From Spirochaetales bacterium (lineage in GTDB: Bacteria; Spirochaetota; Spirochaetia; JAFGDJ01): DNA of 34,329 bases. The notes under the pieces are model-generated. The model saw only the letters and a list, made by a program, of their open reading frames with translations. It was not told the DNA's origin and ran no database searches. The position numbers were made by a program, and so were the translations under genes. This document shows positions 20,098 through 34,329 of the stretch, piece by piece. The stretch covers positions 1-34,329 of the forward strand of contig JAFGDJ010000257.1 of assembly GCA_016932135.1 (NCBI GenBank), in the 5' to 3' direction. Position 1 is the stretch's first letter. Every line of letters begins with the position of its first letter.

Positions 20098-20628
20098 TTA
20101 TCCTTTTCGATAAAAAAGCAGTATCGATCCCCCGTATTGTTTTTCCCGTTCCAGCGATAGCGAGCCCAGTACTTCCGGGTAGATCTCTCCCTTCGGGTGA
20201 TGCAGAAGGAGCCTCCCCCCGGACGGAAGAACATGCTGATCTTCTATTGACTTAAGAAGACGTTCTTTTCCCTTCATGGCGAAGGGCGGGTCCAGATAGA
20301 CGGTATCAAACTGCATTTTCAGCCTCTTGATAAAAAGAAACACATCCTGGGAATAAACGAGGGTTTCCTCCTCCACAAAGGAGAGATTTTTCTTCAAAAC
20401 GGGGATTTTTTTCCGGTCTTTTTCTACAAACACTACCGGAGAAGCCCCCCGGGAGGCGGCTTCCAGGCCTACAATGCCGGATCCGGCAAAGAGATCGAGA
20501 AAAGAGGTTTCCGTCAGATCCCCCAGAATGGAAAACATGGACTCTCGCATACGATCCATGGCCGGTCGAATAATTCCCTTGGGACAGGTGACGATTCTAC
20601 CGCTGTAAGTTCCTCCGGTGATACGCAT
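20098..20628 (-). CDS. rsmD: 16S rRNA (guanine966-N2)-methyltransferase RsmD
   Basis: A 176-residue SAM-dependent methyltransferase that modifies G966 of 16S rRNA in the small subunit. The start MRITGGTYSGRI, the motif RPAMDRMRESMFSIL, the SAM site DLFAGSGIVGLEAASRGA and the catalytic YLDPPF are all characteristic. Length is normal for the family. An extended -10-like TGATATACT (20644-20636) ends 7 bases before the ATG, so the message may be nearly leaderless, though a GAAGG also lies there. The gene is downstream of recG, separated by a hairpin at 20678-20708. Confidence 0.93.
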   Translation of the reverse strand: MRITGGTYSGRIVTCPKGIIRPAMDRMRESMFSILGDLTETSFLDLFAGSGIVGLEAASRGASPVVFVEKDRKKIPVLKKNLSFVEEETLVYSQDVFLFIKRLKMQFDTVYLDPPFAMKGKERLLKSIEDQHVLPSGGRLLLHHPKGEIYPEVLGSLSLEREKQYGGSILLFYRKG

Positions 20629-20677
20629 GGCCTTCAGTATATCAGGGAGGTAATGACAATATCTACCGTTAAAATAA

Positions 20678-20708
20678 CAGGCTCCTTCCCTGACAGGGAA
20701 GGAGCCTG
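20678..20708 (-). terminator. Terminator-like hairpin between recG and rsmD
   Basis: CAGGCTCCTTCCC (20678-20690) pairs perfectly over 13 bases with GGGAAGGAGCCTG (20696-20708) around a 5-base loop. In the minus direction it is followed by TGTTATTTTAA, in the plus direction by A/G-rich DNA, so it most likely ends leftward transcription. The remaining intergenic DNA to 20884 is AT-rich with no recognisable gene. Confidence 0.6.
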
Positions 20709-20884
20709 AAAGCAGAGAGAATAAAAACAGCCCACATTATTTATATTTCACTTTATCTTTCTTTGATCAAGTATATACCTGATCCTAGGATAGCACAAGT
20801 TTTTTTGTAAAAAACCAGGAGTTTTTATTACTGTTAGTAAAAAGTAACCTATCTTTCTAGATAGAATGGATATATAAAAGGATA

Positions 20885-22951
20885 TTAAAATGTGCTTACG
20901 AGCCTTTGATCGAAGGGAGGGCACCGTTCGAGAACCGCTGCCACAACCCGATGGGGAGGTTCCAGCAGCCCCGGGTCGGTTTCCGCCAGGGAAAAGGCGG
21001 CTTCCCGGGCCTGGGAAAGCAGAGAGGTGTCTTTGGTGATATCCGCCACGGTGAAACGGAAATACCCCGATTGTTCAAGCCCGGTGAGGTTTCCCGGTCC
21101 CCGGATTCGCAGATCTTCTTCGGCTATGAAAAAGCCGTCGGTGCTGTTTTTCATGACCTTCAGCCGCTCCTTGGCATCCTCCGTAAGATTGCCGCTGTAG
21201 ATCAGGAAAGCGTAGGACTGATGGCTCCCCCGGCCGACGCGGCCTCGGAGCTGATGGAGGGCCGATAAGCCGAAGCGTTCTGAGTGTTCGATGACCATAC
21301 AGGTGGCGTTGGAGACATCAACCCCCACCTCTACCACGCTGGTAGCCACGAGAATATCGATGTCTCCCCGGTTAAAGGAATCCATGGTTTCTTTTTTCTT
21401 GTCTTCGTCTATCCGTGAGTGAATCAGGGCTGTTTTATACTCGGGAAAAAGAGAATCCCGGATCTTCCGAAACATGGTCTCGGCGTCCTTTATCTCCAGC
21501 TTGGCAGATTCACTGATCAGGGGATACACGAAATAAGCCTGCCGCCCTTTCTTCAGCTCGGCGCGTACGGCGTCGTATACCTTCTTTTCATTTCCTTCCC
21601 GGGCCAGGTGGGTGATCACCGGTTTTCTGCCCGCCGGAGCTTTGCGCAGGGTAGAGACGTCCAGGTCGCCCAAAACGGTCATGGCCAGGGTTCTGGGAAT
21701 GGGTGTGGCGGTCATGAGAAGCAGATCGGCACCGGTTCCTTTCCGCATCAGAGCGGTCCGTTGATGAACGCCGAAACGGTGCTGTTCGTCGATAATCACC
21801 AGTTTCAAATTATTAAAGGTGATGTCGTTTGAAAAAAGGGCGTGGGTGCCTACGAGGATATCGATGTCTCCCTGTTTCAGGGCGGCTTTCAGAAGATCAC
21901 GACGGCCGGACGGCAGGTTCCCGGAAAGAAAAGCCAGGTTAAGCCCCAAAGGAGAGAGCAAGCGAGAGGCGTTTTCCGCATGCTGCCGGGCCAGCAGTTC
22001 CGTGGGGGCCATAAAGGCGGTCTGTCCCCCCCGGCGGACGTATCCTAGAGCAGCCATAAAGGCCAGCAGAGTTTTTCCCACCCCCACATCACCCTGGATA
22101 AGCCGGGCCATGGGATAGGGACCCGACATATCCTGGAGGATTTCCTCCAGGGAGCGCTCCTGATCCTCGGTGAGGGAAAAAGGGAGGCTATTCCGCAGTT
22201 TTTCAATGAGGGTTCTGTCCGGAGGACAAGGCTCCCGGTGGGTGACCCGCCGTTCCATGGCTGCCCGGGCTGTGATGAACTGAAGGTAAAACAATTCCTC
22301 GAAGGCCAGGGTTTTTCTCGCTTTCAGGATTTCTTCCCCACTACCGGGACGATGGAGGATGGAAAGGGCTCGCTGTTTATCCATCAGATCATGGTCTTTT
22401 ACGATATCCGTCGGCAGTTCGTTTTCTATATGTTCTGCGTAGAGCTCCAGAGCCCGGTCCACCGCCCGGCGGAGCATCTTTTGCCCCAACCCGCTTGTTA
22501 AAGGGTAGAGGGGTAAAATTCTGCCGAACTCCTCGGGTTCCTCGGACCAGGGTTCCAGCTCGAAGGCGCTGCTCTGCAGTTCACCGTAACGGTACTGAAA
22601 GGTTCCGTAGAGAAAGTATGACCGGTCCTGTCGAAGGTATTGCGCCAGAAAGTTTCTGTTGAAGCAGAGAAGGGAAGCCTGTTTCGTTCCGTCTTCCACG
22701 ATAATTTTTAAGGTTTTTTTCCTGCCGAAACCGAAGTAAATATGCTCCCGCACCCGGACCGTGGTATTGGCAATACCCTGTCCCCTGATGCTTTCCAGGG
22801 ACGCAAGAGTCTTTCTGTCTTCATAGTCCCTGGGGAGGTGAAGGAGCAGGTCGGCGATACAGGAAATTCCCAACCTGCCGAAAGCCTCGGCATGTTTTGC
22901 CCCGATGCCTCGAACCGTGGTGACCGGTTGTTTCAGCTCCCGGAGAAACAT
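20885..22951 (-). CDS. recG: ATP-dependent DNA helicase RecG
   Basis: A 688-residue branched-DNA helicase that remodels stalled replication forks and Holliday junctions. The N-terminal wedge/OB domain (VRGIGAKHAEAFGRLGI, LLLHLPRDYEDR) is followed by helicase motifs: GDVGVGKT (Walker A), DEQHRFG (Walker B region), MTATPIPRT, and HQLRGRVGRG (motif VI). Length is the usual one. It lies 3 bases after yggT and is probably expressed with dnaE and yggT. Confidence 0.96.
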   Translation of the reverse strand: MFLRELKQPVTTVRGIGAKHAEAFGRLGISCIADLLLHLPRDYEDRKTLASLESIRGQGIANTTVRVREHIYFGFGRKKTLKIIVEDGTKQASLLCFNRNFLAQYLRQDRSYFLYGTFQYRYGELQSSAFELEPWSEEPEEFGRILPLYPLTSGLGQKMLRRAVDRALELYAEHIENELPTDIVKDHDLMDKQRALSILHRPGSGEEILKARKTLAFEELFYLQFITARAAMERRVTHREPCPPDRTLIEKLRNSLPFSLTEDQERSLEEILQDMSGPYPMARLIQGDVGVGKTLLAFMAALGYVRRGGQTAFMAPTELLARQHAENASRLLSPLGLNLAFLSGNLPSGRRDLLKAALKQGDIDILVGTHALFSNDITFNNLKLVIIDEQHRFGVHQRTALMRKGTGADLLLMTATPIPRTLAMTVLGDLDVSTLRKAPAGRKPVITHLAREGNEKKVYDAVRAELKKGRQAYFVYPLISESAKLEIKDAETMFRKIRDSLFPEYKTALIHSRIDEDKKKETMDSFNRGDIDILVATSVVEVGVDVSNATCMVIEHSERFGLSALHQLRGRVGRGSHQSYAFLIYSGNLTEDAKERLKVMKNSTDGFFIAEEDLRIRGPGNLTGLEQSGYFRFTVADITKDTSLLSQAREAAFSLAETDPGLLEPPHRVVAAVLERCPPFDQRLVSTF

Positions 22952-22954
22952 GCG

Positions 22955-23542
22955 TTAAAAAGGAAGTTTTAACAGCAGAGCGGCAAGAAAGTTGACCAGT
23001 AGTTTCCCCACAATGACTGATACTAACAGGGCTCCCCCGGTAAAACCTAAAGCGGTTCCGTAGCCAAGAATCCTTTTTTTAAAGAAGGTTCGCTTTAACC
23101 AGGTCATCAGAGGGTTGAGGATGATGTCCAGGGTATGAATCAGGGGAGATACGGTATTGCCGCCGGTAAAATGGACGAAGAGACGAATTACCGTCATGAT
23201 GAGCATAAAGGTCAGCAGGAAGGATACCGCCGACCAGAGGGCTGTAAGAATGATTGAAAGAATGATCCCCAGGGTGATCTTTCCATAGACCTGCAGGGTG
23301 TTGATGATGTTGAGAACAATCACCAGGACCAGCAGAGCCGCGATGGGGGAAAAATCAACCCGTTCGGTGCGCAGGAAGGTAAGTTTTCGAAAAAAATTCA
23401 GATAAGGATCGGTAATACGGTTTATCACATCGATAGCCCGGCCTTGAGGCAGTCCTCTGAACCAGGTCAGCATAATCCGGATAAAAATAATCAGCATATA
23501 CGTGGAGATGATCGCTCCGAGTATTCTAAGTACTGTCTGCAT
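22955..23542 (-). CDS. yggT: YggT-family membrane protein
   Basis: A 195-residue protein with two tandem YGGT domains, each a pair of hydrophobic helices (LRILGAIISTYMLIIFIRIM with LTWF, and VRIT-type DPYLNFFR after the first pair; a second pair followed by LNPLMTWLKRTFF). Family members are small inner-membrane proteins linked to cell-envelope or osmotic functions, of uncertain role. GGAGG lies 7 bases before the ATG. It sits between dnaE and recG. Confidence 0.88.
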   Translation of the reverse strand: MQTVLRILGAIISTYMLIIFIRIMLTWFRGLPQGRAIDVINRITDPYLNFFRKLTFLRTERVDFSPIAALLVLVIVLNIINTLQVYGKITLGIILSIILTALWSAVSFLLTFMLIMTVIRLFVHFTGGNTVSPLIHTLDIILNPLMTWLKRTFFKKRILGYGTALGFTGGALLVSVIVGKLLVNFLAALLLKLPF

Positions 23543-23665
23543 GTAAAGCCTCCAATAATCTTGTCTTATTAATCTCTTCTATCATTAACAGCAATATGTG
23601 TGAGTGTAGGGTTTCAGTGTGAGGGTAAACGGTCTCTCCCTTCCACCGATCACCCCATACTGCAA

Positions 23666-26600
23666 TCATTCCTTCCACACCTCCCGGACAAAGGGCAGAT
23701 GTCGTAATTCCGCCTCCAGGGACTTGTTCCAGGTCGTGGTAATCTGGTCCGACGCTTTGATGATACATCGACCGTTGTTACCGTTTTCGGGGAGGTGCAG
23801 AAAGACCCGGCAGTTTCCCGGATAATCCATGCAAAGGGACCGCAGGGCTACCAGTTCGTCTTCTTCATACCTGCCGTTTTCAAATTCTATGTGAACCTCC
23901 AGGGCTTCCCGACAGTCCAACTCTTCCGGAGACATTACCTCTTCCACAATGAGCTGATTTGTCCCCCGACGATCGTCCAGGGTACCCCGGATAGCGATGA
24001 TATCGTCAGCCTGCAGTTTCGTCCGGTATTGCTCCCAGATTTCCGGGAAAAAGACAATCTCCATAGATCCCGTATAGTCCTCCAGCCGCAGGAACGCCAT
24101 CAGGGGACCTTTCTTGGTCTGAATCTCCCGGAGGCTGGTAATGATCCCCAGCGTAGTATAGGTCTTTCCCCGGGTACTCCTTTCGGGATTCTGAAAATCG
24201 ATGTTCCTGACCTTTTCCCAGATAGACCTGTATGCATCCATGGGGTGCCCGGACACATAAAAGCCCAGCATTTCCTTTTCGAATTTCAACAGTTCCCGTT
24301 CGGGCCATTCGGTTACCGGCTCAAGAACCGGTGAAGCGTCCACCGGTTCTTCCGCTCCGTCGAAGAGGGATGCCTGGCCGTACTGCCTGAACTCCTTGCT
24401 TCGGGAAACGAACTCCAGGACCCTGTCGAGATTGTACATCAACATGGCTCTGGGGGTGCCGAATTGATCGAAGACCCCGGTCTGAATAAGGGTTTCCAAC
24501 ACCTTTCTGTTGACGGTCTTTCCGTCCACCCGCATGAGAAAATCCACCGGAGATTCAAAAGGACCGGCGGTATTTCTTTCGGTAATTATCGCGTCCACCG
24601 CCGCCCCGCCGACATTCTTAATGCCGATAAGCCCGTAGACGATGTTGCCCCGGTTGACCGTGAAGGTTTTCTCGGAAAGGTTGATATCCGGCGGCATGAC
24701 CTTCAGGTTCATCCTGGTGGCTTCGTTGATATATTCTCTCAGTTTCTCGGTGTCGTTTATTTCATTGGTCAGGTTGGCGGCCATGAATTCCGCAGGGTAA
24801 TTGGCCTTGAGAAAGGCGGTTTTATAGGCCAGCACCGAATAGGCGGCGGCGTGGGATTTGTTGAAGCCGTAACCGGCGAAGGGTACAAGGAGGTCGAAGA
24901 TCGCTTCCGCGTCCTTAATATTGTACCCCCCCTTTATGGCTCCTTCGATAAAACGGAGCTTTTCCTCCGTCATGACTTCTTCTTTTTTCTTTCCCATGGC
25001 CCGTCTGAGGATATCCGCCTGCCCCAAGGTGTACCCTCCCACAATCCGGGCGATTTCCATCACCTGTTCCTGGTAGACGATGACGCCGTAGGTTTCCTTC
25101 AATACCGGCTCCAGGGCGGGAAGGAGATAATTGATGGGCTCCCTGCCCGACTTGGCCCGGCAGAACTGATCGATGTTGTCCATGGGTCCCGGGCGGTACA
25201 GGGCGTTTAAGGCGATGAGATCTTCGATGGATTCGGGTTTGGCTTTTTTCAGTACCGCCTGCATACCGGTGCTTTCGAACTGAAACACACAGGTGCTTGA
25301 GCCCTCTCCCAGCATGGCGAAGGTTTTCTTATCGTCCTCCGGAATCTTATCGATATCAAAGTGGGGATCCACCTTTTTTATCAGGTCTTCGGTGTGCTTT
25401 ATCAGGGTGAGAGTCTTGAGTCCCAGAAAATCCATCTTTACCAGGCCGCATTCCTCCAAAAGGTCCATAGTGTACTGGGTGGAAATGGACCCGGTTTTGG
25501 GGTCCCGGTAGAGGGGCACGTAGTCGGTCAGGGCGGTACGGGCGATGACGATACCCGCCGCGTGGGTCGATGCGTGGCGATGGAGGCCTTCGAGCCTCAA
25601 GGCTGTGTCGATGAGTTCTTCGTGAACCCCTCCCTGTTTCCTGATCTCTTCCAGCTTGGGTTCCTGGGCCAAGGCGTCCTTCAAGGTGACCTTTATCCCT
25701 CCCGGAACCAGCTTGGCGATACTGTCCGATTCCGCGTAGGGCAGGTCCAACACCCGGGCTACATCCCGCAACACGGCTCGGGATTTCAAGGTGCCGAAGG
25801 TAATGATCTGCCCTACCTTGTCCGTTCCGTATTTGGAGGTGACATAGTCTATCACCTGGCCGCGGCCTTCGTAGCAGAAATCGATGTCGAAGTCGGGCAT
25901 GGATACCCGTTCGGGATTGAGGAACCGCTCAAAAAGCAGGCTGTATTTTAACGGATCGATATCGGTAATTTTCAGCGCGTAGGCAACAATGGAGCCGGCG
26001 CCGGAACCCCGGCCAGGACCCACGGGGATATGCTGCTGGTGAGCCCAGTGGATAAAATCCCACACGATAAGGAAATAACCGGTAAACCCCATGGAGGTGA
26101 TTACGGAGAGCTCGTATTCGGCGCGGTTGGCGATGGCTTCGGAATAACCGGGATACCGGTCGTCCAGTCCTCGAAGGGTGAGATGCTTCAGGTACTCGTC
26201 GGGAGAGGAAAAGCCTTCCGGAATCTCGTAATCGGGAAGCAGAGGACCCGGAAGGTCGATGGTAAGATCACACCTCTCGGCAATGGCCAGGGTGTTCCGC
26301 AGGGCTTCGGGGATTTCTGAGAACAGGGCGTTCATTTCTTCCGGACTCTTCATGTAAAACTGGTCCGTCTGAAACCGCATTCTTTCCCGCTCGAGTTTCT
26401 TTTTATTAGTCCCGATGCAGATGAGGATGTCCTGGGCGTTGGCGTCTTCCCTGTCCAGATAATGATTGTCGTTGGTGGCGATCAGAGGAAGCCCGGAACG
26501 CCGGGATATGTCTACCAGGGCTTTATTGACCACCGCCTGTTCTTTCAGACCGTGGTCCTGCAATTCCAGATAAAAATTGTCTTTGCCGAAGAGATCCCCG

Positions 26601-27088
26601 TAATAACAGGCTTTTTTATAAGCCCCTTCCTCATCGCCCTGCAGGATAAGCCGGGGAATCTCTCCGGCCAGGCAGCTGGACGAGCCAATCAGGCCCTCGG
26701 CGTGTTCTGCCAGCACCTGATCGTCTATCCTCGGTTTATAGTAAAAGCCCTCCGTGTAAGCCAGGGAGCTTAAGGCGATAAGATTTTTGTACCCGGTTTT
26801 ATTCTTTGCCAGGGCAATGAGGTGATGATAGCGGTTTCCCTGTTCGCTGCCGGTCTTTTTCAACCTGGAATCCGGCGCCAGATAAAACTCACAGCCGATG
26901 ATAGGGTGTATTTCCGAAGTCTGGCAGGCTTTGTAGAACTTCAGCGCTCCGAAAAGATTTCCGTGATCCGTTAAGGCCAGGTGTTTCATCCCCAGGGTTT
27001 TGGCCTTTTTTACCATCCGCGACAACGGGGACGCTCCGTCTAACAGGGAATAGTCGGAATGGTTGTGAAGATGGACGAAGTCAGGCAC
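23666..27088 (-). CDS. dnaE: DNA polymerase III alpha subunit
   Basis: A replicative polymerase of 1140 residues starting with GTG at 27088, supported by AAGGAG 5 bases upstream and by the family start PDFVHLHNHSDYSLLDGA. An open frame extends 112 codons further but lacks a start signal. The N-terminal PHP domain (HLHNHSDYS, LTDHGNLFG) precedes the polymerase core; PDFDIDF (about residue 395) and MDFLGLKTL carry the catalytic aspartates. The segment near YGQASLFDG resembles a clamp-binding QxxLF motif, and TTLGIITSLREIQTKKG marks the C-terminal OB fold. It has its own promoter in the 71-base gap after the FAD-subunit gene and is followed by yggT after 123 bases. Confidence 0.96.
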   Translation of the reverse strand: MPDFVHLHNHSDYSLLDGASPLSRMVKKAKTLGMKHLALTDHGNLFGALKFYKACQTSEIHPIIGCEFYLAPDSRLKKTGSEQGNRYHHLIALAKNKTGYKNLIALSSLAYTEGFYYKPRIDDQVLAEHAEGLIGSSSCLAGEIPRLILQGDEEGAYKKACYYGDLFGKDNFYLELQDHGLKEQAVVNKALVDISRRSGLPLIATNDNHYLDREDANAQDILICIGTNKKKLERERMRFQTDQFYMKSPEEMNALFSEIPEALRNTLAIAERCDLTIDLPGPLLPDYEIPEGFSSPDEYLKHLTLRGLDDRYPGYSEAIANRAEYELSVITSMGFTGYFLIVWDFIHWAHQQHIPVGPGRGSGAGSIVAYALKITDIDPLKYSLLFERFLNPERVSMPDFDIDFCYEGRGQVIDYVTSKYGTDKVGQIITFGTLKSRAVLRDVARVLDLPYAESDSIAKLVPGGIKVTLKDALAQEPKLEEIRKQGGVHEELIDTALRLEGLHRHASTHAAGIVIARTALTDYVPLYRDPKTGSISTQYTMDLLEECGLVKMDFLGLKTLTLIKHTEDLIKKVDPHFDIDKIPEDDKKTFAMLGEGSSTCVFQFESTGMQAVLKKAKPESIEDLIALNALYRPGPMDNIDQFCRAKSGREPINYLLPALEPVLKETYGVIVYQEQVMEIARIVGGYTLGQADILRRAMGKKKEEVMTEEKLRFIEGAIKGGYNIKDAEAIFDLLVPFAGYGFNKSHAAAYSVLAYKTAFLKANYPAEFMAANLTNEINDTEKLREYINEATRMNLKVMPPDINLSEKTFTVNRGNIVYGLIGIKNVGGAAVDAIITERNTAGPFESPVDFLMRVDGKTVNRKVLETLIQTGVFDQFGTPRAMLMYNLDRVLEFVSRSKEFRQYGQASLFDGAEEPVDASPVLEPVTEWPERELLKFEKEMLGFYVSGHPMDAYRSIWEKVRNIDFQNPERSTRGKTYTTLGIITSLREIQTKKGPLMAFLRLEDYTGSMEIVFFPEIWEQYRTKLQADDIIAIRGTLDDRRGTNQLIVEEVMSPEELDCREALEVHIEFENGRYEEDELVALRSLCMDYPGNCRVFLHLPENGNNGRCIIKASDQITTTWNKSLEAELRHLPFVREVWKE

Positions 27089-27110
27089 CGGAACTCCTTG
27101 GTTATCTGAA

Positions 27111-27139
27111 AGTATATCTGAAAAGCCCGTTCCAGTAAA
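27111..27139 (-). promoter_or_regulatory. Promoter of dnaE
   Basis: On the minus strand TTTACT (27139-27134), 17 bases, TATACT (27116-27111). The predicted start near 27104 leaves a 16-base leader holding the AAGGAG ribosome site. Confidence 0.6.
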
Positions 27140-27159
27140 GAAGGCGGTTAATAGCGGGG

Positions 27160-28011
27160 TCAGAGATCTCCCAGTTTTTTTAAGGTATCGAAAAGAAGAG
27201 CGGTGATCTGGTGCTTTCGCCAGGGCAGCAGGGGAGTGGAATGGGATTCCAGCATTTCTTCCAGGCTTTCCACAGCCCGGGAAATATCTTTTCCGCTTAA
27301 AGGACGTTTTTTCCCTTCCACCAGGGATTCCATGTCGGGATTCCGAAGGACTCCCGTTCCGTTTATGCAGAAGGAGCACCCGAAGGATGAAATTATTCCG
27401 TCTTTGTGCAGATCCGCCAGGCAACAGAAGGACAGGGCACCGGACTCCAGGCCGGAACGTTCCTGAAAGATTTCATAGCGTTCGAAGGCGGATTGAAAGA
27501 TAGGAATCCGGATGCGGGTGATAATCCACGGATCCGGATTATCCGATGCTTCTTCATAGTATTTCCGGATGGGAATCCAGGCGGAACCGCTCAGGCCGCG
27601 AACCTCCAGCCGGGTACCGAGGAGGTATAAAACCGCCGGCAGGTTCACCGTTTTCGCTTTCAGGGCGATATTCCCCCCTAAGGTAGCCCGGGTTCGTAAG
27701 GGACCGTTCCCTAAAGCGGTCAAGGCTTCGTATAAAGCCCGGCTGCCCAGGTGCCGCTTCAATGAAAGAAGTTTCTCCAGTGTAATCCCTGAGCCCACCT
27801 CAAGATAGGATTCCGTTTTATTGAGCTTCAAGGTATCGGACAATTGATCCAAGGATATGATATCACCCGTGGGGACCTCTTTCGTCCAGGGGCTCATTAC
27901 ATAGGTTCCCCCGCCGAAGGGGAAGCTCCTGGGGTGGGCTTTCCGAAGGGCCTGGAGTTCCGAGGTGTTCCGGGGTGTGTAGATATGTGCCTGCTTAGCG
28001 GGTTTGTTCAT
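27160..28011 (-). CDS. FAD-binding subunit-like protein of the xanthine dehydrogenase family
   Basis: A 283-residue homologue of the medium (FAD) subunit of molybdenum hydroxylases. The PFGGGTYVMS segment (31-40) matches the first FAD loop and TLGGNI (110-115) the second, so flavin binding may be retained. A conserved ASPxxD-type continuation after TLGGNI is changed to ALKAKTVN. In active enzymes this subunit passes electrons from the iron-sulfur subunit to NAD or another acceptor. The start overlaps the preceding iron-sulfur-like gene by 17 bases. Because the two companion subunits have lost key residues, the true role is uncertain. Confidence 0.8.
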   Translation of the reverse strand: MNKPAKQAHIYTPRNTSELQALRKAHPRSFPFGGGTYVMSPWTKEVPTGDIISLDQLSDTLKLNKTESYLEVGSGITLEKLLSLKRHLGSRALYEALTALGNGPLRTRATLGGNIALKAKTVNLPAVLYLLGTRLEVRGLSGSAWIPIRKYYEEASDNPDPWIITRIRIPIFQSAFERYEIFQERSGLESGALSFCCLADLHKDGIISSFGCSFCINGTGVLRNPDMESLVEGKKRPLSGKDISRAVESLEEMLESHSTPLLPWRKHQITALLFDTLKKLGDL

Positions 28012-28459
28012 GGTGCCTTAAAAACCTCCTCCTCGCCGCCAGGCGCACACCGTCCAGAAGACTCAAGTAGCCGCCGCAGATCGGATGAAAGCCGGTAAAG
28101 GCGGCGGCCGTGTCGGCTTCTTCGGGATGGGAGACTCTCTCCAGGAGAGCATGTACCAGGAAGGTATACACCGGACGATGGATGGGACAGGGACAAAAAT
28201 GAGCTTCTTCAAACCCGGTTTCTATATCCTCACAGTCGGCGGTTCCGGAAAAACCTTCATAGGTTGTCACCAGCCGGCCTTTCAGATGAAACGCCGGTAC
28301 CAAATGGGGAAAGACCGGCTCGCCGTCCAGCAGGATGAGGGTCTGTTCTTCCGGACCTTCAATCAGGCGGTAGAGGTCCCGCAGAAGATCCGAAAGCCTC
28401 GTCAGGGGAGAGACGTCCGGTTCCACAAGGTTTCCGTTGAGATAAAAACGAACCGTCAT
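27995..28459 (-). CDS. Degenerate iron-sulfur subunit-like protein of the xanthine dehydrogenase family
   Basis: A 154-residue protein with the length and layout of the small [2Fe-2S] subunit: it starts VRFYLNGNLVEPDVSP, has TTYEGF, and ends with a GFHPICGGY segment where GNLCRCTGY is usual. Normal members use eight cysteines for two clusters. This one has only four in total (76, 89, 91, 128). The first-cluster loop is deleted altogether, and the second-cluster pattern CGFC is reduced to CPC. It almost certainly cannot bind both clusters and probably binds none. It overlaps the molybdenum-subunit gene by 4 bases (ATGA) and the FAD gene by 17. Confidence 0.78.
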   Translation of the reverse strand: MTVRFYLNGNLVEPDVSPLTRLSDLLRDLYRLIEGPEEQTLILLDGEPVFPHLVPAFHLKGRLVTTYEGFSGTADCEDIETGFEEAHFCPCPIHRPVYTFLVHALLERVSHPEEADTAAAFTGFHPICGGYLSLLDGVRLAARRRFLRHHEQTR

Positions 28460-30483
28460 GGTTTTACCCGGATTTCGAAAAGGGTTTCATCCCCCGCGGG
28501 AAGCTGGTTTATGGAATGACCTGCGGCCTGCGAAAGGGCGGTGAGAAAGGCGGCTGAAAGCCCTCCGGCGGCCAGGTTTGACAGGCCGCTGCTTTCTTTT
28601 TTTCCATCTTCCAGAAAGGTGATGGAAAGGGGAATCATCCGGTGGAGGGGTATAATTCCAGGAGTGCCCGTCAGCTCCTGCAGAACCGAATAGATATCCG
28701 TCTCCAGACAACTCCGGGCGGCTTGAGAATCAAGAACGGGACCGCAGTTTAAGACCAGGGTAAGGTCCTCCACCGAGGTCCGCAGCAATACCGGATCGAA
28801 AAGAACTTCCACCACCCAGGCAGCCCAGGTGAGGTTGTGAAAATAGGTTCCTTTCATCGTGCGGTTATCCCAGGTGACTGACCGGGGAAGACGGAAGCTG
28901 CTTTTCCCGTTGATGGGAAGGGGAGATCGAAAGCGTTTCCGCTGGATGGACGCAGCGGTTTTTTTGATCAGTTGATTTACCACGGTTACGTTGCGGGAAA
29001 ACACACCGGGGCCGGTGTCCGGGACCAAAGTAGTGTCCGGCATGAGAAGGGTAATGTTCCGGGGATCCAGGGATAAAATCGAGGCCGCTGTTTTCTTCCA
29101 GATCAGGGCGGTGGCCTCGTGTCCCGGGACAGCGGAGGTCTGAATGGACAGATTGCTTTTCGTATCCAGGTGAAGCCGGAGGGTTCCCGCCAGATCGTTT
29201 TCTTCTTCACCGGGAAAGGAGCCGTCACAGAAGTTTATCGCCAGACCGATACCCCGTCGTTTCCCCGGAGGACCGTTTATGGCGGTGTCCTTCTTTCGGT
29301 TCAGCTCATAGGAGCTGTATTTCCGGGAAAAATCGGTGACCGCGGCGGCGGTATCCAGTAGTCTCTTGACTGTTTCGAGATGACGCTCATTTCGAAGTCC
29401 CGCGGTTTTGCTGCCGGAAGATCGCAGATATTCCTTCCTGATCCAAAGGGGGTCTCTTTCCCCCACCGAAGACGCCCGGGTGATGTGGGTTTCCAGGGCG
29501 GTTATCGCCGAAGAAACACCGCCTCCGGCACTGATGTCCGCCGGCGGGTTATTGGTCACGATTACCCGACCGTGAAGGGTGATATGGGGACAGTTGTAGA
29601 TCCCCGTCACCGCCGTGACAGCCCGCTGAAGTATCATTTCCGCGGCGACGGGATAGGCTCCCGCGTCAATGTCCAGCCGGATATCCCGGCTCGAGATTCG
29701 CCCGTCCTCCCCTAAACCGGTCCGTAGGCGCAGTTTCATCGCCGGACTCTCAGGGAGGAGGAACGGTTGTTCCTGCCGATTCAGCAATAGCAGACAGGGC
29801 TTCCCCGTATGCCGGGAACAGAGGGCCGCCCAGACAGCTAAAAGCGAGGGATACCAGGAAAGACAATCTTCCGAAGGGCCGGGGGAAAGAGCTCGTAAGG
29901 TAACCCGTTTCTTTTCCATTCCCAGGGCTTTTGCCGCGGCTTCGGCAGCGTGGTGAATCCACCGGGAGGTCACATAAACGGTGAGGTCGCCCGATTCATA
30001 CCAGGCCCAGGCGCCAAGATTGCCGCATACCCTTGGTGAGGTTCCGGGAAGGGTGTACTCTTCTTCAAGAACCCGGGCGGCATTCTTCAAGGCTTCTTCG
30101 CTGTTTCCTTTCTTGTAATGCGTTTCCGCCGCCACACCGGCGGTCTCGGGTCTCTCCAGGCTGCTGAGGGTATAATCGGTCTCATAGTCCAAACGTACTT
30201 TTTTCAAGGCTTTGTGGAGCCGATCGGAATCCGCCGAAGCGGCCAGCAGAACGGGTTCCCCCTCGTATCGTACCATTTCGTCCGCCAGCAGGGGTATTTC
30301 GGTATTGAAAGCCGTAAGGGTCTTTTTCCCGGGGATATCTTCGGCGGTGATGAGATGGACATCCTTGGCTTCTTCGGGAAAACGCAGGCCGGTTATCCTG
30401 CCGGAGGGTACGGTAGATCGCACCAGGGTCATATGCAGGGTGTCGGAAGTCACCAGGTCTTCCAGGAAGTTATGTCTCGTCAA
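28456..30483 (-). CDS. Degenerate molybdopterin-binding subunit-like protein of the xanthine dehydrogenase family
   Basis: A 675-residue protein, shorter than the usual ~750-780. The N-terminal a/b hammerhead domain is recognisable (LVRSTVPSGRI, TAEDIPGKK, VRYEGEPVLLAAS). The cofactor-binding domain is eroded. GGGFGGK is replaced by SPGPSEDC (200-207), the arginine-glycine motif before PQ by ISAGGGVSS (317-325), and the catalytic region GxGEPP by SNLAAGG (635-641), with no glutamate. The frame is nonetheless fully open. The start is TTG with AGGAGGT about 7 bases upstream. It follows the sugar aminotransferase gene by 4 bases. It is unlikely to be an active hydroxylase; a structural, binding or regulatory role is possible. 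Confidence 0.8.
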   Translation of the reverse strand: MTRHNFLEDLVTSDTLHMTLVRSTVPSGRITGLRFPEEAKDVHLITAEDIPGKKTLTAFNTEIPLLADEMVRYEGEPVLLAASADSDRLHKALKKVRLDYETDYTLSSLERPETAGVAAETHYKKGNSEEALKNAARVLEEEYTLPGTSPRVCGNLGAWAWYESGDLTVYVTSRWIHHAAEAAAKALGMEKKRVTLRALSPGPSEDCLSWYPSLLAVWAALCSRHTGKPCLLLLNRQEQPFLLPESPAMKLRLRTGLGEDGRISSRDIRLDIDAGAYPVAAEMILQRAVTAVTGIYNCPHITLHGRVIVTNNPPADISAGGGVSSAITALETHITRASSVGERDPLWIRKEYLRSSGSKTAGLRNERHLETVKRLLDTAAAVTDFSRKYSSYELNRKKDTAINGPPGKRRGIGLAINFCDGSFPGEEENDLAGTLRLHLDTKSNLSIQTSAVPGHEATALIWKKTAASILSLDPRNITLLMPDTTLVPDTGPGVFSRNVTVVNQLIKKTAASIQRKRFRSPLPINGKSSFRLPRSVTWDNRTMKGTYFHNLTWAAWVVEVLFDPVLLRTSVEDLTLVLNCGPVLDSQAARSCLETDIYSVLQELTGTPGIIPLHRMIPLSITFLEDGKKESSGLSNLAAGGLSAAFLTALSQAAGHSINQLPAGDETLFEIRVKP

Positions 30484-30487
30484 GAGC

Positions 30488-31681
30488 CTACCTCCTGGCC
30501 TGCCGACCCACGGCTCGGACAGCCTCTACAACCCGTTCCGCTTCCACATCCCTTAATCCCGGGTAGATGGGAAGGCTGAGACAGTGCTGATAGGTCCTTA
30601 AACTGACGGGAAAGTCTTCCGGTTTGTAACCGTACAGGTTCCGGTAGTACGTCATCATATGCAGGGGCTTGTAATGGACCGATGTTCCGATCCCCCGGGC
30701 TAACAGAGCATCGGCAAAGGCGTTTCTGTCCAGGGTCAGGGCGTCCGGCAGAAGCTGCAGGATAAAGAGATGCCAGGCGTGTTCCGGGGTTTTCTCGGGA
30801 AGCAGGAGATAATCCTGATCCGCCAGCTGTTCAAAATAAAAAGCGGCTATTTCCTTTCGCCGCCGCAGAAAAGAGTCGGCTTTCTTCAATTGTTCCAGCC
30901 CTAAGGCGGCGCACAGGTCCGAGAGGTTGTACTTGTATCCCGCGGCCACCACATCGTATTCCCAGGCTTGCCGCCGGTTCGAGGTGTACCTGTCCCAGGC
31001 CTTTCTGTCGATACCGTGAAGCCGCATCATGGAAACCCTCTCGGCGATTTTTTCCGACGGAGTCACCACCATGCCCCCCTCGCCGGTGGTGATAGTCTTG
31101 GTGGCGTAGAAGGAGAATACCCCGGCGTTTCCAAAGGTTCCCGCGGCTTTTCCCCGCTGATACACCGGAAAGGCGTGAGCGGCGTCCTCTACCAGGGGGA
31201 TACCGAAGCGTCGCGATAAGTCCGTCAAGGGTTCCATGGAACACATTCTGCCGGCCAGGTGGACGGGAAGGATGGCTGATATGGGTTTGCCGCTTCTCTC
31301 CAGGGCTTCTTCCACGCCCCGGGGATCCAGGTTCAGGGTTTGAGGCTCAATATCGACAAAAAGGGGGTGGGCTCCCAGATAACGAAGAACTTCGGCGGTG
31401 GCGGTAAAGGTGTAGGGAGATGTGATAACCCAGGTGTCCGGTTGTATACCCAGGGCTTCCAGGGAAAGATGCAGTCCCGCGGTAGCGGAATTGACTGCCC
31501 GGGCAAAGGGAACTCCCAGGTATTCCTGGAAGGCTTTCTCAAATTCTTCGGCGTACCTGCCGGAAGTAAGCCATCCGCTTTCCAGGACCCGTATTACCAG
31601 GTCCCGCTCTTCGGGGCCTAAGGACGGGCGGGCAAAGGGAATAAAAGAAGGCGCTGTTTCCTCAGTATTTCGGTTCATCAT
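30488..31681 (-). CDS. DegT/DnrJ/EryC1-family sugar aminotransferase
   Basis: A 397-residue PLP enzyme that transaminates a nucleotide-linked keto-sugar, normally in surface polysaccharide or glycan synthesis. The fold signatures are ESGWLTSG near the N-terminus, VNSATAGLHL, VEDAAHAFP and the Schiff-base Lys195 in SFYATKTITTGEGGM. It begins ATGATG inside the end of the dehydratase gene (20-base overlap), and the dehydratase probably supplies its 4-keto substrate. The product would be a 4-amino sugar nucleotide; exact sugar unknown. Confidence 0.9.
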   Translation of the reverse strand: MMNRNTEETAPSFIPFARPSLGPEERDLVIRVLESGWLTSGRYAEEFEKAFQEYLGVPFARAVNSATAGLHLSLEALGIQPDTWVITSPYTFTATAEVLRYLGAHPLFVDIEPQTLNLDPRGVEEALERSGKPISAILPVHLAGRMCSMEPLTDLSRRFGIPLVEDAAHAFPVYQRGKAAGTFGNAGVFSFYATKTITTGEGGMVVTPSEKIAERVSMMRLHGIDRKAWDRYTSNRRQAWEYDVVAAGYKYNLSDLCAALGLEQLKKADSFLRRRKEIAAFYFEQLADQDYLLLPEKTPEHAWHLFILQLLPDALTLDRNAFADALLARGIGTSVHYKPLHMMTYYRNLYGYKPEDFPVSLRTYQHCLSLPIYPGLRDVEAERVVEAVRAVGRQARR

Positions 31682-33140
31682 CTTTTTCTTCCAGGCTGGG
31701 GACAGCCCGCCGCAGGACCCGCCGCAGCTCTCTCCTATTACGGTAGACTTCCTTGTTTTGGGAAGTAAAGAAACAGATCGGCAGTAATTCCTGAAGGAGT
31801 TTTTCGGAGTCCAAGGGTTTTGCTCCGTTGCTCTTTATTTTTAAAATACCCGAAAAACCGGTTTCTTCCGGTATTTCGTCGACCGACCAGAGGCGTTCAT
31901 CGATTTTTTCTCCCGGCCTTAAGCCTATGGTGGTAATGGGAATCTCCATTTCCGGTTCAAAACCGTAGAAACGGATCATCTGTTCGGCCAGTTCGCGAAT
32001 CGATACCGGCTCTCCCATATCCAGAATATAGAGGGTTCCCCCCTGGCCGACTCCGCCGGCTTTTAATACCAGGGACGCGGCTTCGGGAATAGTCATGAAA
32101 AAACGCCGGCAGTCCGGATGGGTAATGGTCACCGGTCCGCCCTTCTGTATCTGCTTTTCAAAGAGGGGGACGATGGACCCGCGGGACCCGAGGACATTTC
32201 CGAAGCGTACCACCATATACTCGGTATCGGGACCGTTTCCTTCCAAAACAATTCGTTCGGCAATCTTTTTCCCCGCGCCGTAGACGCTGTAGGGGTCCAC
32301 CGCTTTATCGGTGGAGATAAAGACAAATCGCCGGCATTTTGTCTCCGCGGCGGATCTGACAATATTGCGGGTGCCGAAGACATTATTCTTTATGGCTTCC
32401 ACGGGATTCTGTTCCAGCATGGGGACATGTTTATAGGCGGCGCAGTGGAAAATCACGTCCGCCTTCAGACGACGAAGAATGAAGGTAACAAACTCCTGGT
32501 CCAACAGTTCGCCGATAACCGGCACAATGACGGCATTTTTGCCGATTCCTTCCTCTTGCAGGAGTTTGAGCTCCTTTTCTATTTCATAGATGCTGTTCTC
32601 GTCGTGATCCAGCAGATAGATCCTCTGGGTGCCGCCGGACAGAAGCTGCCGGGCCAGTTCACTGCCGATGCTTCCTCCCGCTCCGGTAATCAGCACCCGG
32701 CTTCCTTTCAAGTATTCCAGGCTTTCTTTCAGGGGTATCAGTACCGGGTCCCGGGCAAGGAGATCCCGGGGATCGATGTCCCGCGTCTGGATAAGGTGGG
32801 CGTCACCCTCGACAATTTGAGAGATCTGTGGTAGTAAACGAATTTTCCTGAAGTCGGCTCTTTTGAGGGTCCAGTATATCCGAAGAAGATCCTTCTGCCG
32901 GGCCCCGGGGATAGCGATGATTGCCTCTTCCGCGGGGATTTCTCGAAGAAAGGTTTCCACCTTCGCGATGGGTCCCAGGACGGGTATTCCTCCTATGGAA
33001 GTACCGATTTTCTCGGGATCATCGTCCAGGAAGGCTTCCACCTGTCCGAGGATTCCCTTCTGCCGAATTTCCTGAGCCAGAGCCTTTCCGGCAAACCCAG
33101 CTCCTATGATGTACATGAAAGGGTGTTGTTTTGTTTTCAT
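31662..33140 (-). CDS. NDP-sugar 4,6-dehydratase/epimerase (CapD/WbpM-type, soluble form)
   Basis: A 492-residue protein with two Rossmann parts. Residues 1-130 contain YIIGAGFAGKALAQE, the CoA-binding-like domain found in CapD/WbpM proteins. The SDR domain has GAGGSIGS (153-160), CAAYKHVPMLE, and STDKAVDPYSVYGAGK (276-291), then RFGNVLGSRGSIVPLF. The four N-terminal membrane helices of WbpM are absent, so it should be soluble. Tyr287 and Lys291 form a classical YxxxK pair, where many CapD proteins have Met in place of Tyr. It would act on UDP-GlcNAc or similar, feeding the aminotransferase. It overlaps loaP by 4 bases. Confidence 0.88.
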   Translation of the reverse strand: MKTKQHPFMYIIGAGFAGKALAQEIRQKGILGQVEAFLDDDPEKIGTSIGGIPVLGPIAKVETFLREIPAEEAIIAIPGARQKDLLRIYWTLKRADFRKIRLLPQISQIVEGDAHLIQTRDIDPRDLLARDPVLIPLKESLEYLKGSRVLITGAGGSIGSELARQLLSGGTQRIYLLDHDENSIYEIEKELKLLQEEGIGKNAVIVPVIGELLDQEFVTFILRRLKADVIFHCAAYKHVPMLEQNPVEAIKNNVFGTRNIVRSAAETKCRRFVFISTDKAVDPYSVYGAGKKIAERIVLEGNGPDTEYMVVRFGNVLGSRGSIVPLFEKQIQKGGPVTITHPDCRRFFMTIPEAASLVLKAGGVGQGGTLYILDMGEPVSIRELAEQMIRFYGFEPEMEIPITTIGLRPGEKIDERLWSVDEIPEETGFSGILKIKSNGAKPLDSEKLLQELLPICFFTSQNKEVYRNRRELRRVLRRAVPSLEEKDDEPKY

Positions 33141-33673
33141 CGCTGTTCCGCCATTTTTTCCATCAGTTCAAAGGAAAAATCTACCAGAAAGGAATTCTCA
33201 TAAAGGGATAGCCTGACCTTTGCCCGTTTTTTTCGTTTATCCACCTTGACGATTCTTCCTTCAAGACCGGTCATGGGACCGGAAACCACCCGTATTTTAT
33301 TGTTTTCGTCAAAGAATACCTGGGAGGTTTCCACGGTCTCACCGAAGGACAGAAAATGCAGGAGCAGTTTTTCATCCTCCCCGGAAAGGGGCTCCGGGCT
33401 TCTTTCCCCCCGAAGAAAGCGAAAGAAACCGGGGGTTCGCCTGAACAACCAGTAGATATCCGTGGGAATACCCGCAGATTGAAAGAAGATATAACCCGGA
33501 TATAAGGGCAGGAGCGTCTCCTTTATTTTTCCCCTCCGGCGGGTGATAAGTTTTCTGCGGGGCAGCAGAAGATCTTCCCCGATATCAAGGCCCAGGGTAG
33601 CTATTCCTTTTCGCGCGAGGTGGATATATTTTTCTTCTTCCCTTGTTTTTACCTGGATGACATAATAACTCAT
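33137..33673 (-). CDS. loaP: NusG-like specialised transcription antiterminator (LoaP/RfaH/UpxY type)
   Basis: A 178-residue NusG paralogue starting MSYYVIQVKTREEEKYI. The NGN domain includes PLYPGYIFFQ and the phrase WLFRRTPGFFRFLRG; the C-terminal KOW region reads IRVVSGPMTGLEGRIVKVDKRKKRAKV. Such proteins stay with RNA polymerase and suppress termination in long operons for polysaccharides or secondary products; LoaP is the group known from spirochaetes and Gram-positives. It lies directly upstream of sugar-nucleotide genes, as expected. The start at 33673 is chosen over a TTG at 33730; the ribosome site is weak. A weak TTGAAG/TACCTT promoter (33730-33702) fits this start. Confidence 0.85.
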   Translation of the reverse strand: MSYYVIQVKTREEEKYIHLARKGIATLGLDIGEDLLLPRRKLITRRRGKIKETLLPLYPGYIFFQSAGIPTDIYWLFRRTPGFFRFLRGERSPEPLSGEDEKLLLHFLSFGETVETSQVFFDENNKIRVVSGPMTGLEGRIVKVDKRKKRAKVRLSLYENSFLVDFSFELMEKMAEQR

Positions 33674-33848
33674 GGTTTGTGAATCGAGAGCTCCGAAGGA
33701 AAAGGTACCATGGAATTGGAATACCTTCAACTAGGTTTAACCAGGACCGATTGATCGAAGTTCTCTTGAAACCTGGAGGCTTCCATCCATTCTGGTATCG
33801 ATTGAAGAGACCGGTAAAGGCAGCTTGCAGGACGCCGATAATCGAAAC

Positions 33849-34329
33849 ATGTTGATCAACGCGATTACCAGAATGTGTCCCCCTAAGGCTGTTTTTTTTA
33901 TCCTCCTCCCGTTGCTCTTTCTCCTGCCGCAATCCGCGCGGTGTGACATGGTGTATATCGAGGTGAGTATTCCGGGAGAAGAGGAGCTTCCCATTCCTCC
34001 GGAGGTTCTGGGGGCTTTTGAAGACGGAATTATGGACCCCTTTTTCCAGGATTGGCATATCGTCTGTAACGGCAGAAAGGTGAAGGACATTGAAAAAAGG
34101 GTAACCGAAGCTGTTAGGGGAATGGATTTCTATATTTATATAGATACTCTTTATGCATCGAATCAAAGAAGGTTCGGGGATTTCTCCATAGCCTATATTC
34201 TTAAGGCTTCGGACGGAGAAAAGGTTTTATTGCGGGGAGAACATTCCTCCCGGGAGTTTGAAGATCCGAATTCCCCGGACCCCCTGGAAATCTACAGGCT
34301 TCAGGGCCATTCTTCAGCCATGGAAATAC
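33849..34329 (+). CDS. Secreted hypothetical protein, N-terminal part (runs off the window)
   Basis: An open frame from ATG 33849 to the window end, 160 codons visible. MLINAITRMCPPKAVFFILLPLLFLLPQSARC looks like a signal peptide with a basic start and a hydrophobic core; the start could also be the ATG at 33873. The mature part has a mixed charged character (VSIPGEEELPIPPEVLGAF, FYIYIDTLYASNQRRFGDFS). A cysteine just after the hydrophobic core (QSARC) is not a good lipobox. The ribosome site is weak. Divergent from loaP. The opposite-strand frame here is considered a shadow. No family is recognised. Confidence 0.65.
   Translation, partial: MLINAITRMCPPKAVFFILLPLLFLLPQSARCDMVYIEVSIPGEEELPIPPEVLGAFEDGIMDPFFQDWHIVCNGRKVKDIEKRVTEAVRGMDFYIYIDTLYASNQRRFGDFSIAYILKASDGEKVLLRGEHSSREFEDPNSPDPLEIYRLQGHSSAMEI

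Follow-up and report, generated by a model that had tools for sequence, protein, structure and literature searches.

The closest described systems belong to the xanthine oxidase family, e.g., XdhABC, nicotinate dehydrogenase (3hrd), the xanthine dehydrogenase (XDH) of R. capsulatus (1jro), aldehyde oxidoreductase (1sij), and quinoline 2-oxidoreductase (1t3q). A survey of molybdenum utilization from 2018 described orphan proteins of this family in genomes without synthesis of the molybdenum cofactor (Moco), and either new Moco genes or molybdenum-independent forms were proposed, but a sequence-level signature of molybdenum independence was not found in that survey (PMC6147048). That a complex of the family can fold without the Mo-pyranopterin is exemplified by the CO dehydrogenase of Hydrogenophaga (1ffu), which is the apo form of an otherwise Mo-dependent enzyme. 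The locus described here is different, because the site itself has been lost by evolution. A literature search, which did not reach most subscription journals, retrieved no paper on it.

The window, i.e., the whole stretch of DNA that was analyzed (34,329 nucleotides from a Spirochaetales bacterium), contains a trio of minus-strand genes that encode, one after the other, the large, the FeS-type, and the FAD subunit (L-S-M). The large subunit (28456..30483) has 675 aa, a xanthine-oxidase fold from which the Moco site has gone, and a TTG start that is preceded by a strong ribosome site, GGAGG. The FeS-type subunit (27995..28459, minus strand) has 154 aa with a CoxS/XdhC-like fold and a basic C-terminal tail, and the FAD subunit (27160..28011, minus strand) has 283 aa. 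The overlaps are 4 bp between the large and the FeS-type gene and 17 bp between the FeS-type and the FAD gene; thus, the three genes are indeed open and overlapping, as had been stated in the preliminary description. Pfam searches revealed Ald_Xan_dh_C (2e-12), MoCoBD_1 (4e-35), and MoCoBD_2 (1e-12) in the large subunit and FAD_binding_5 (1e-24) in the FAD subunit, while the FeS-type subunit matched only Fer2_2 at 4e-4, which is under its cut-off. The matches of the trio to the NCBIfam XDH equivalog models were also far under the cut-offs. AlphaFold models were confident (pLDDT 87 for the large and 95 for the FeS-type subunit), and both agree with structures of the xanthine oxidase family, the TM scores of the modeled large subunit being 0.84-0.87 when it is compared with xanthine oxidase and with aldehyde oxidoreductase; the models were built on an alignment of relatives and say nothing about the presence or absence of cofactors. 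The subunit set encoded in one operon, the domain order, the predicted fold, and the FAD motif are shared with the xanthine oxidase family, to which the trio belongs by descent, whereas the identity in the structure alignment is only about 17-20%, and the Moco loops, the arginine, the catalytic Glu, and, in the window, the FeS ligands are missing.

The alignment with canonical paralogues revealed that every Moco signature has gone from the large subunit of the window, confirming the initial observation that it lacks the GGGFGGK motif, the arginine motif before PQ, and the Glu of GEPP. The former GGxFGGK loop (29860..29880, minus strand, residues 202-208) now reads GPSEDCL, and in the former AFRGxGxPQ loop (29509..29535, minus strand, residues 317-325) RGxGxPQ has been replaced by SAGGGVSS. 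The former Moco-binding turn MGQG (29110..29124, minus strand, residues 454-458) is now GHEAT, and in the former GAKGxGEPP segment (28567..28596, minus strand, residues 630-639) GEPP has become SGLSN, with Asn at residue 636 in the place of the catalytic Glu. The window retains 22 of the 43 positions that are near-invariant in 17 canonical proteins, and the losses lie mainly in the known Moco motifs. The canonical paralogues were aligned alongside as controls, which ruled out that an intact Mo enzyme was hidden by a poor alignment. Thus, from the features that define a working molybdenum hydroxylase, the window has neither the Moco signatures (GGxFGG, RGxGxPQ, MGQG) nor the catalytic Glu nor the ligand sets of eight Cys for the [2Fe-2S] clusters, and only the FAD-binding GGT/TLGGN is present.

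Next, 68 large subunits of the same operon type were compared, including that of the window. The Arg of RGxGxPQ is present in none of the 68 and the Phe of GGxFGG in five, and the Gln of GQG, the Gly of the GG loop, and the equivalent of Gln1194 are almost all gone. The catalytic Glu is retained in 24 of the 68 proteins and the equivalent of the apical Gln in 40. In the canonical paralogues Arg, Phe, Lys, Gln, and Glu are each found in 14 of 14 sequences; the Arg was the label that defined the canonical set, and the remaining motifs and the tree agree with it independently. Positions that were gained and conserved in the large subunits of the clade include W175, R387, W462, R517-F518, and L522-P523.

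The 68 loci form one clade (SH-aLRT 100), and the sister clade consists of XDH-like proteins of about 712 aa from the same class (L045, L050, L053-L056, L059, L111, L123, L135, L137, L141). These proteins resemble the trio in the L-S-(M) order of many loci, but their motif set FGKRQEQG is fully intact, they also occur in other classes, and none of them was observed at the NusG-CapD-DegT/dnaE locus. Outside Spirochaetia, every canonical-type copy that was read from the phylum (from Brachyspira-like and other bacteria) likewise had the intact set FGKRQEQG, and, thus, Spirochaetia is the only class in which the eroded clade was detected. Protein and profile searches detected open-frame homologues in 53 of 60 sampled relatives and in 208 of 247 genomes of the class, counts that include canonical copies, and the stripped-down complex has been kept in nearly all sampled families of Spirochaetia. 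An apparent T. pallidum genome carries the trio at about 87 kb in the same tight operon, and one clade member of the T. denticola group shares 88% identity with Treponema putidum (NZ_CP009228.1). The search of the class genomes did not detect the trio in a very small Borrelia-like family (f19), and the plasmid records contained only ordinary XDHs with at most 25% identity among the matches listed.

The dN/dS values of the three genes were 0.02-0.17 in four close pairs, all of them outside the genus of the window, for which no congener was found, and they were similar to those of the adjacent DegT, CapD, and DnaE genes. Only close pairs were relied on, because distant pairs were saturated or had higher values; in the highest pair, whose dS was close to 1 and whose ORF starts were wrongly set, they reached 0.35-0.59. 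Decay of the genes in this genome alone, or an error of the assembly, could have been suspected, since the window protein lies on a long branch of about 1.5 changes per column and the loss of FeS ligands exceeds that of most relatives. However, the three overlapping frames are intact and headed by a strong ribosome site, about 48 nonsense changes would be expected under neutrality and none is present, and the loss of the Moco site is common to relatives across the class. The shared loss in a single clade and the low dN/dS values have already refuted private decay, and the losses are ancient and common to the clade. With a conserved fold, missing catalytic residues, and purifying selection across lineages, the trio has the features of a pseudoenzyme. 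The preliminary description had proposed selection for a non-redox or rewired function, and a selected function without Moco is well supported, because the relatives share the site loss, form one clade, and are under strong purifying selection; intact relatives beside one decaying copy, which would have spoken against it, were not found.

The capacity of the host genomes to synthesize Moco was also analyzed. MoaC and MoeA are both absent in 41 of the 65 trio-bearing genomes that were tested. In 15 genomes that are nearly complete, several as a single contig, MoaA, MoaC, and MoeA were all missing and the trio contains the sole MoCoBD_1 gene (G026, G047, G044, G074, G006, G131, G122, G115, G206, G069, G190, G128, G152, G239, G059), and also in the apparent minimal genome of T. 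pallidum the trio is retained while no Moco pathway was found. Missing Moco genes alone are no proof, since intact canonical xanthine oxidase genes also occur in some genomes that lack them, but in combination with the loss of the site they make a strong case for independence from Moco. The window itself contains no cofactor-maturation gene near the trio, as had been noted at the outset. Elsewhere in the genome, MoaC and MoeA are encoded, MoaA has a weak match, and XdhC is present once; three further MoCoBD_1 genes exist there, and the motifs are largely intact in at least two of these. This genome makes Moco, and, therefore, its trio lacks the site despite available Moco.

The retained apical Gln and Glu residues, together with the Moco synthesis of the window genome, could be taken to indicate that the trio has remained a molybdenum hydroxylase whose Moco site has diverged strongly. 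This is very improbable, given the complete absence of the Arg, the nearly complete loss of the other Moco-binding residues, and the 15 near-complete genomes without MoaA, MoaC, and MoeA. Because the apical Gln equivalent and the Glu have been kept in the proportions given above, some members may have a pterin site that is weak or altered. On balance, it is highly likely that the trio is independent of Moco.

Two further groups of genes were noticed during this comparison. Ten genomes (G007, G176, G003, G029, G002, G046, G016, G136, G215, G023; loci L053, L124, L145, L146) have genes of the xanthine oxidase family beyond the trio, but no match to MoaA, MoaC, or MoeA. In the extra genes that were read (from G007, G176, G046, and G023) the Moco motifs are largely intact, and these ten genomes present the opposite kind of orphan molybdoprotein, which perhaps uses scavenged Moco or an uncharacterized route. 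The second group consists of xanthine oxidase-type proteins of 928-959 aa with fused FeS and large domains (L059:16216-19001, L111:13016-15895). Their FeS domain has none of the eight cysteines, the large domain reads YSKQKETG, and they are a separate candidate for cofactor loss.

The FeS-type subunit has lost ligands as well, which the preliminary description did not mention. In the window, the former loop of [2Fe-2S] cluster I (28304..28366, minus strand) has none of the four cysteines and a deletion of seven residues. In the former cluster-II region (28076..28189, minus strand) C91-x2-H94 ... H125-P-I-C128 replaces CxxC...CxC, i.e., C/H/P/C occupy the four cysteine positions and two of four ligands are left. 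Judged from these residues, a 2Cys/2His metal site may have arisen at this place. All eight FeS cysteines have been retained in 53 of the 66 relatives, also in genomes without Moco synthesis, and ligands have been lost in 13, which corresponds to nine changes on the tree. Most or all ligands have gone in the window, G026, and G131, and other lineages have lost one of the two sets; for example, the T. pallidum-like copy lacks cluster I like the window, yet cluster II is retained. The FeS-type subunit of the clade has gained a C-terminus rich in Arg and Lys, with a mean charge of +4.7 versus +0.2 in canonical proteins (Mann-Whitney p 2e-6, an optimistic value because the sequences are related). 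The FAD subunit of the window has kept TLGGN as well as GGGT, in agreement with the earlier remark on its TLGGNI. Across the clade GGT is found in 47 of 66 members, GGN in 51, and both are intact in 37; many of the remaining variants are conservative (GAT, GCT), and G131 has GGT instead of GGN. Because FeS ligands have been lost in 13 of 66 members, the universal core of the complex is the fold plus, usually, FAD.

These distributions bear on the possibility that the trio is a rewired redox enzyme throughout, i.e., an FAD/[2Fe-2S] oxidoreductase in which the reaction takes place at the flavin or at a newly formed substrate site in the cavity that once held Moco. The retention of the FeS ligands and FAD motifs in most relatives favors rewired redox chemistry at the level of the family. 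The loss of the FeS ligands in the window and several other lineages favors a non-redox or FAD-only core, and the genes have stayed intact there, as they have in members with an altered FAD motif such as G131. A redox enzyme in all members is thus a serious possibility, albeit somewhat short of an even chance.

The gene neighbourhood was also compared. The locus order is NusG-like - CapD - DegT - L - S - M - dnaE - yggT - recG, and a specialised NusG paralogue (33137..33730, minus strand) heads the operon. The block from the NusG-like gene to recG (20098-34166 of the window) is conserved over much of the class, and the predicted roles of its parts are unrelated. A DegT/PseC-like aminotransferase gene (30488..31681, minus strand) lies directly upstream of the large-subunit gene in 53 of 66 relatives, and a gene for a CapD-like nucleotide-sugar dehydratase (31662..33140, minus strand) is found upstream in 51 of 66. 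This tight arrangement, which is also present in the apparent T. pallidum genome, could indicate that the trio is an accessory factor of the CapD-DegT amino-sugar pathway, e.g., an enzyme partner or a regulator. However, G131 (a single contig), G087, and G036 contain the trio without a match to CapD or DegT, so that a universal dependence on CapD and DegT was ruled out, and in four families the trio lies beside dnaE without DegT. An accessory role in this pathway is therefore unlikely. The dnaE gene (23666..27088, minus strand, probable GTG start at 27088) is directly downstream in only 31 of 61 relatives, and, thus, a functional linkage to dnaE is weak; loci of the Treponema type have CapD-DegT without dnaE. 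Because the neighbours vary and three genomes keep the trio without CapD and DegT, the trio is a stable unit, but its neighbours are not. In one locus (L031, genome G004) the CapD and DegT ORFs are fragmented while the adjacent trio is intact, which may be a sequencing error or a real loss.

Taken together, the best explanation, with a probability of roughly three in four, is that the trio is a Moco-free pseudo-molybdenum-hydroxylase that has been redox-rewired in most lineages and is an FAD-binding scaffold in the window. Its single origin, the shared loss, and the purifying selection were observed, and the exact timing is inferred: in one copy of an XDH-like L-S-M operon the Moco pocket would have disappeared a single time, no later than the base of Spirochaetia, and the complex would then have been retained for another function. 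In most descendants, which kept FAD and both [2Fe-2S] sites, electron movement probably persists, for example from NAD(P)H via FAD and the clusters to a partner at the old Moco place, or in the reverse direction. The lineage of the window has shed the FeS ligands as well and would be left with a three-subunit FAD-binding scaffold, which most likely binds a ligand or partner rather than performing hydroxylation or FeS electron transfer; the chance that the core function of this copy is non-redox is about even. The complex does not require CapD or DegT in every genome.

Tentatively, the whole class might run a Mo-free derivative of xanthine oxidase with a single origin and a new cofactor-independent role, as a ligand-sensing or assembly scaffold; some lineages would have lost not only Moco but also FeS and a portion of the FAD site, with the three-subunit body being kept. 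The trio resembles the orphan molybdoproteins of the 2018 survey as a protein of the xanthine oxidase family in genomes without a complete Moco pathway, but it has a clear sequence signature of molybdenum independence, which that survey did not find (PMC6147048). The clade thus supplies such a signature: its members, a monophyletic group under strong selection, have the loss of the Moco loops in common, and they often occur without MoaA, MoaC, or MoeA. The textbook hydroxylase role is most probably not the job of the trio. Automatic labels like 'xanthine dehydrogenase' or 'quinoline 2-oxidoreductase', the latter being an annotation in T. pallidum, would therefore be wrong for these genes, and the trio is a testable puzzle in a minimal genome that seems to be that of T. 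pallidum.
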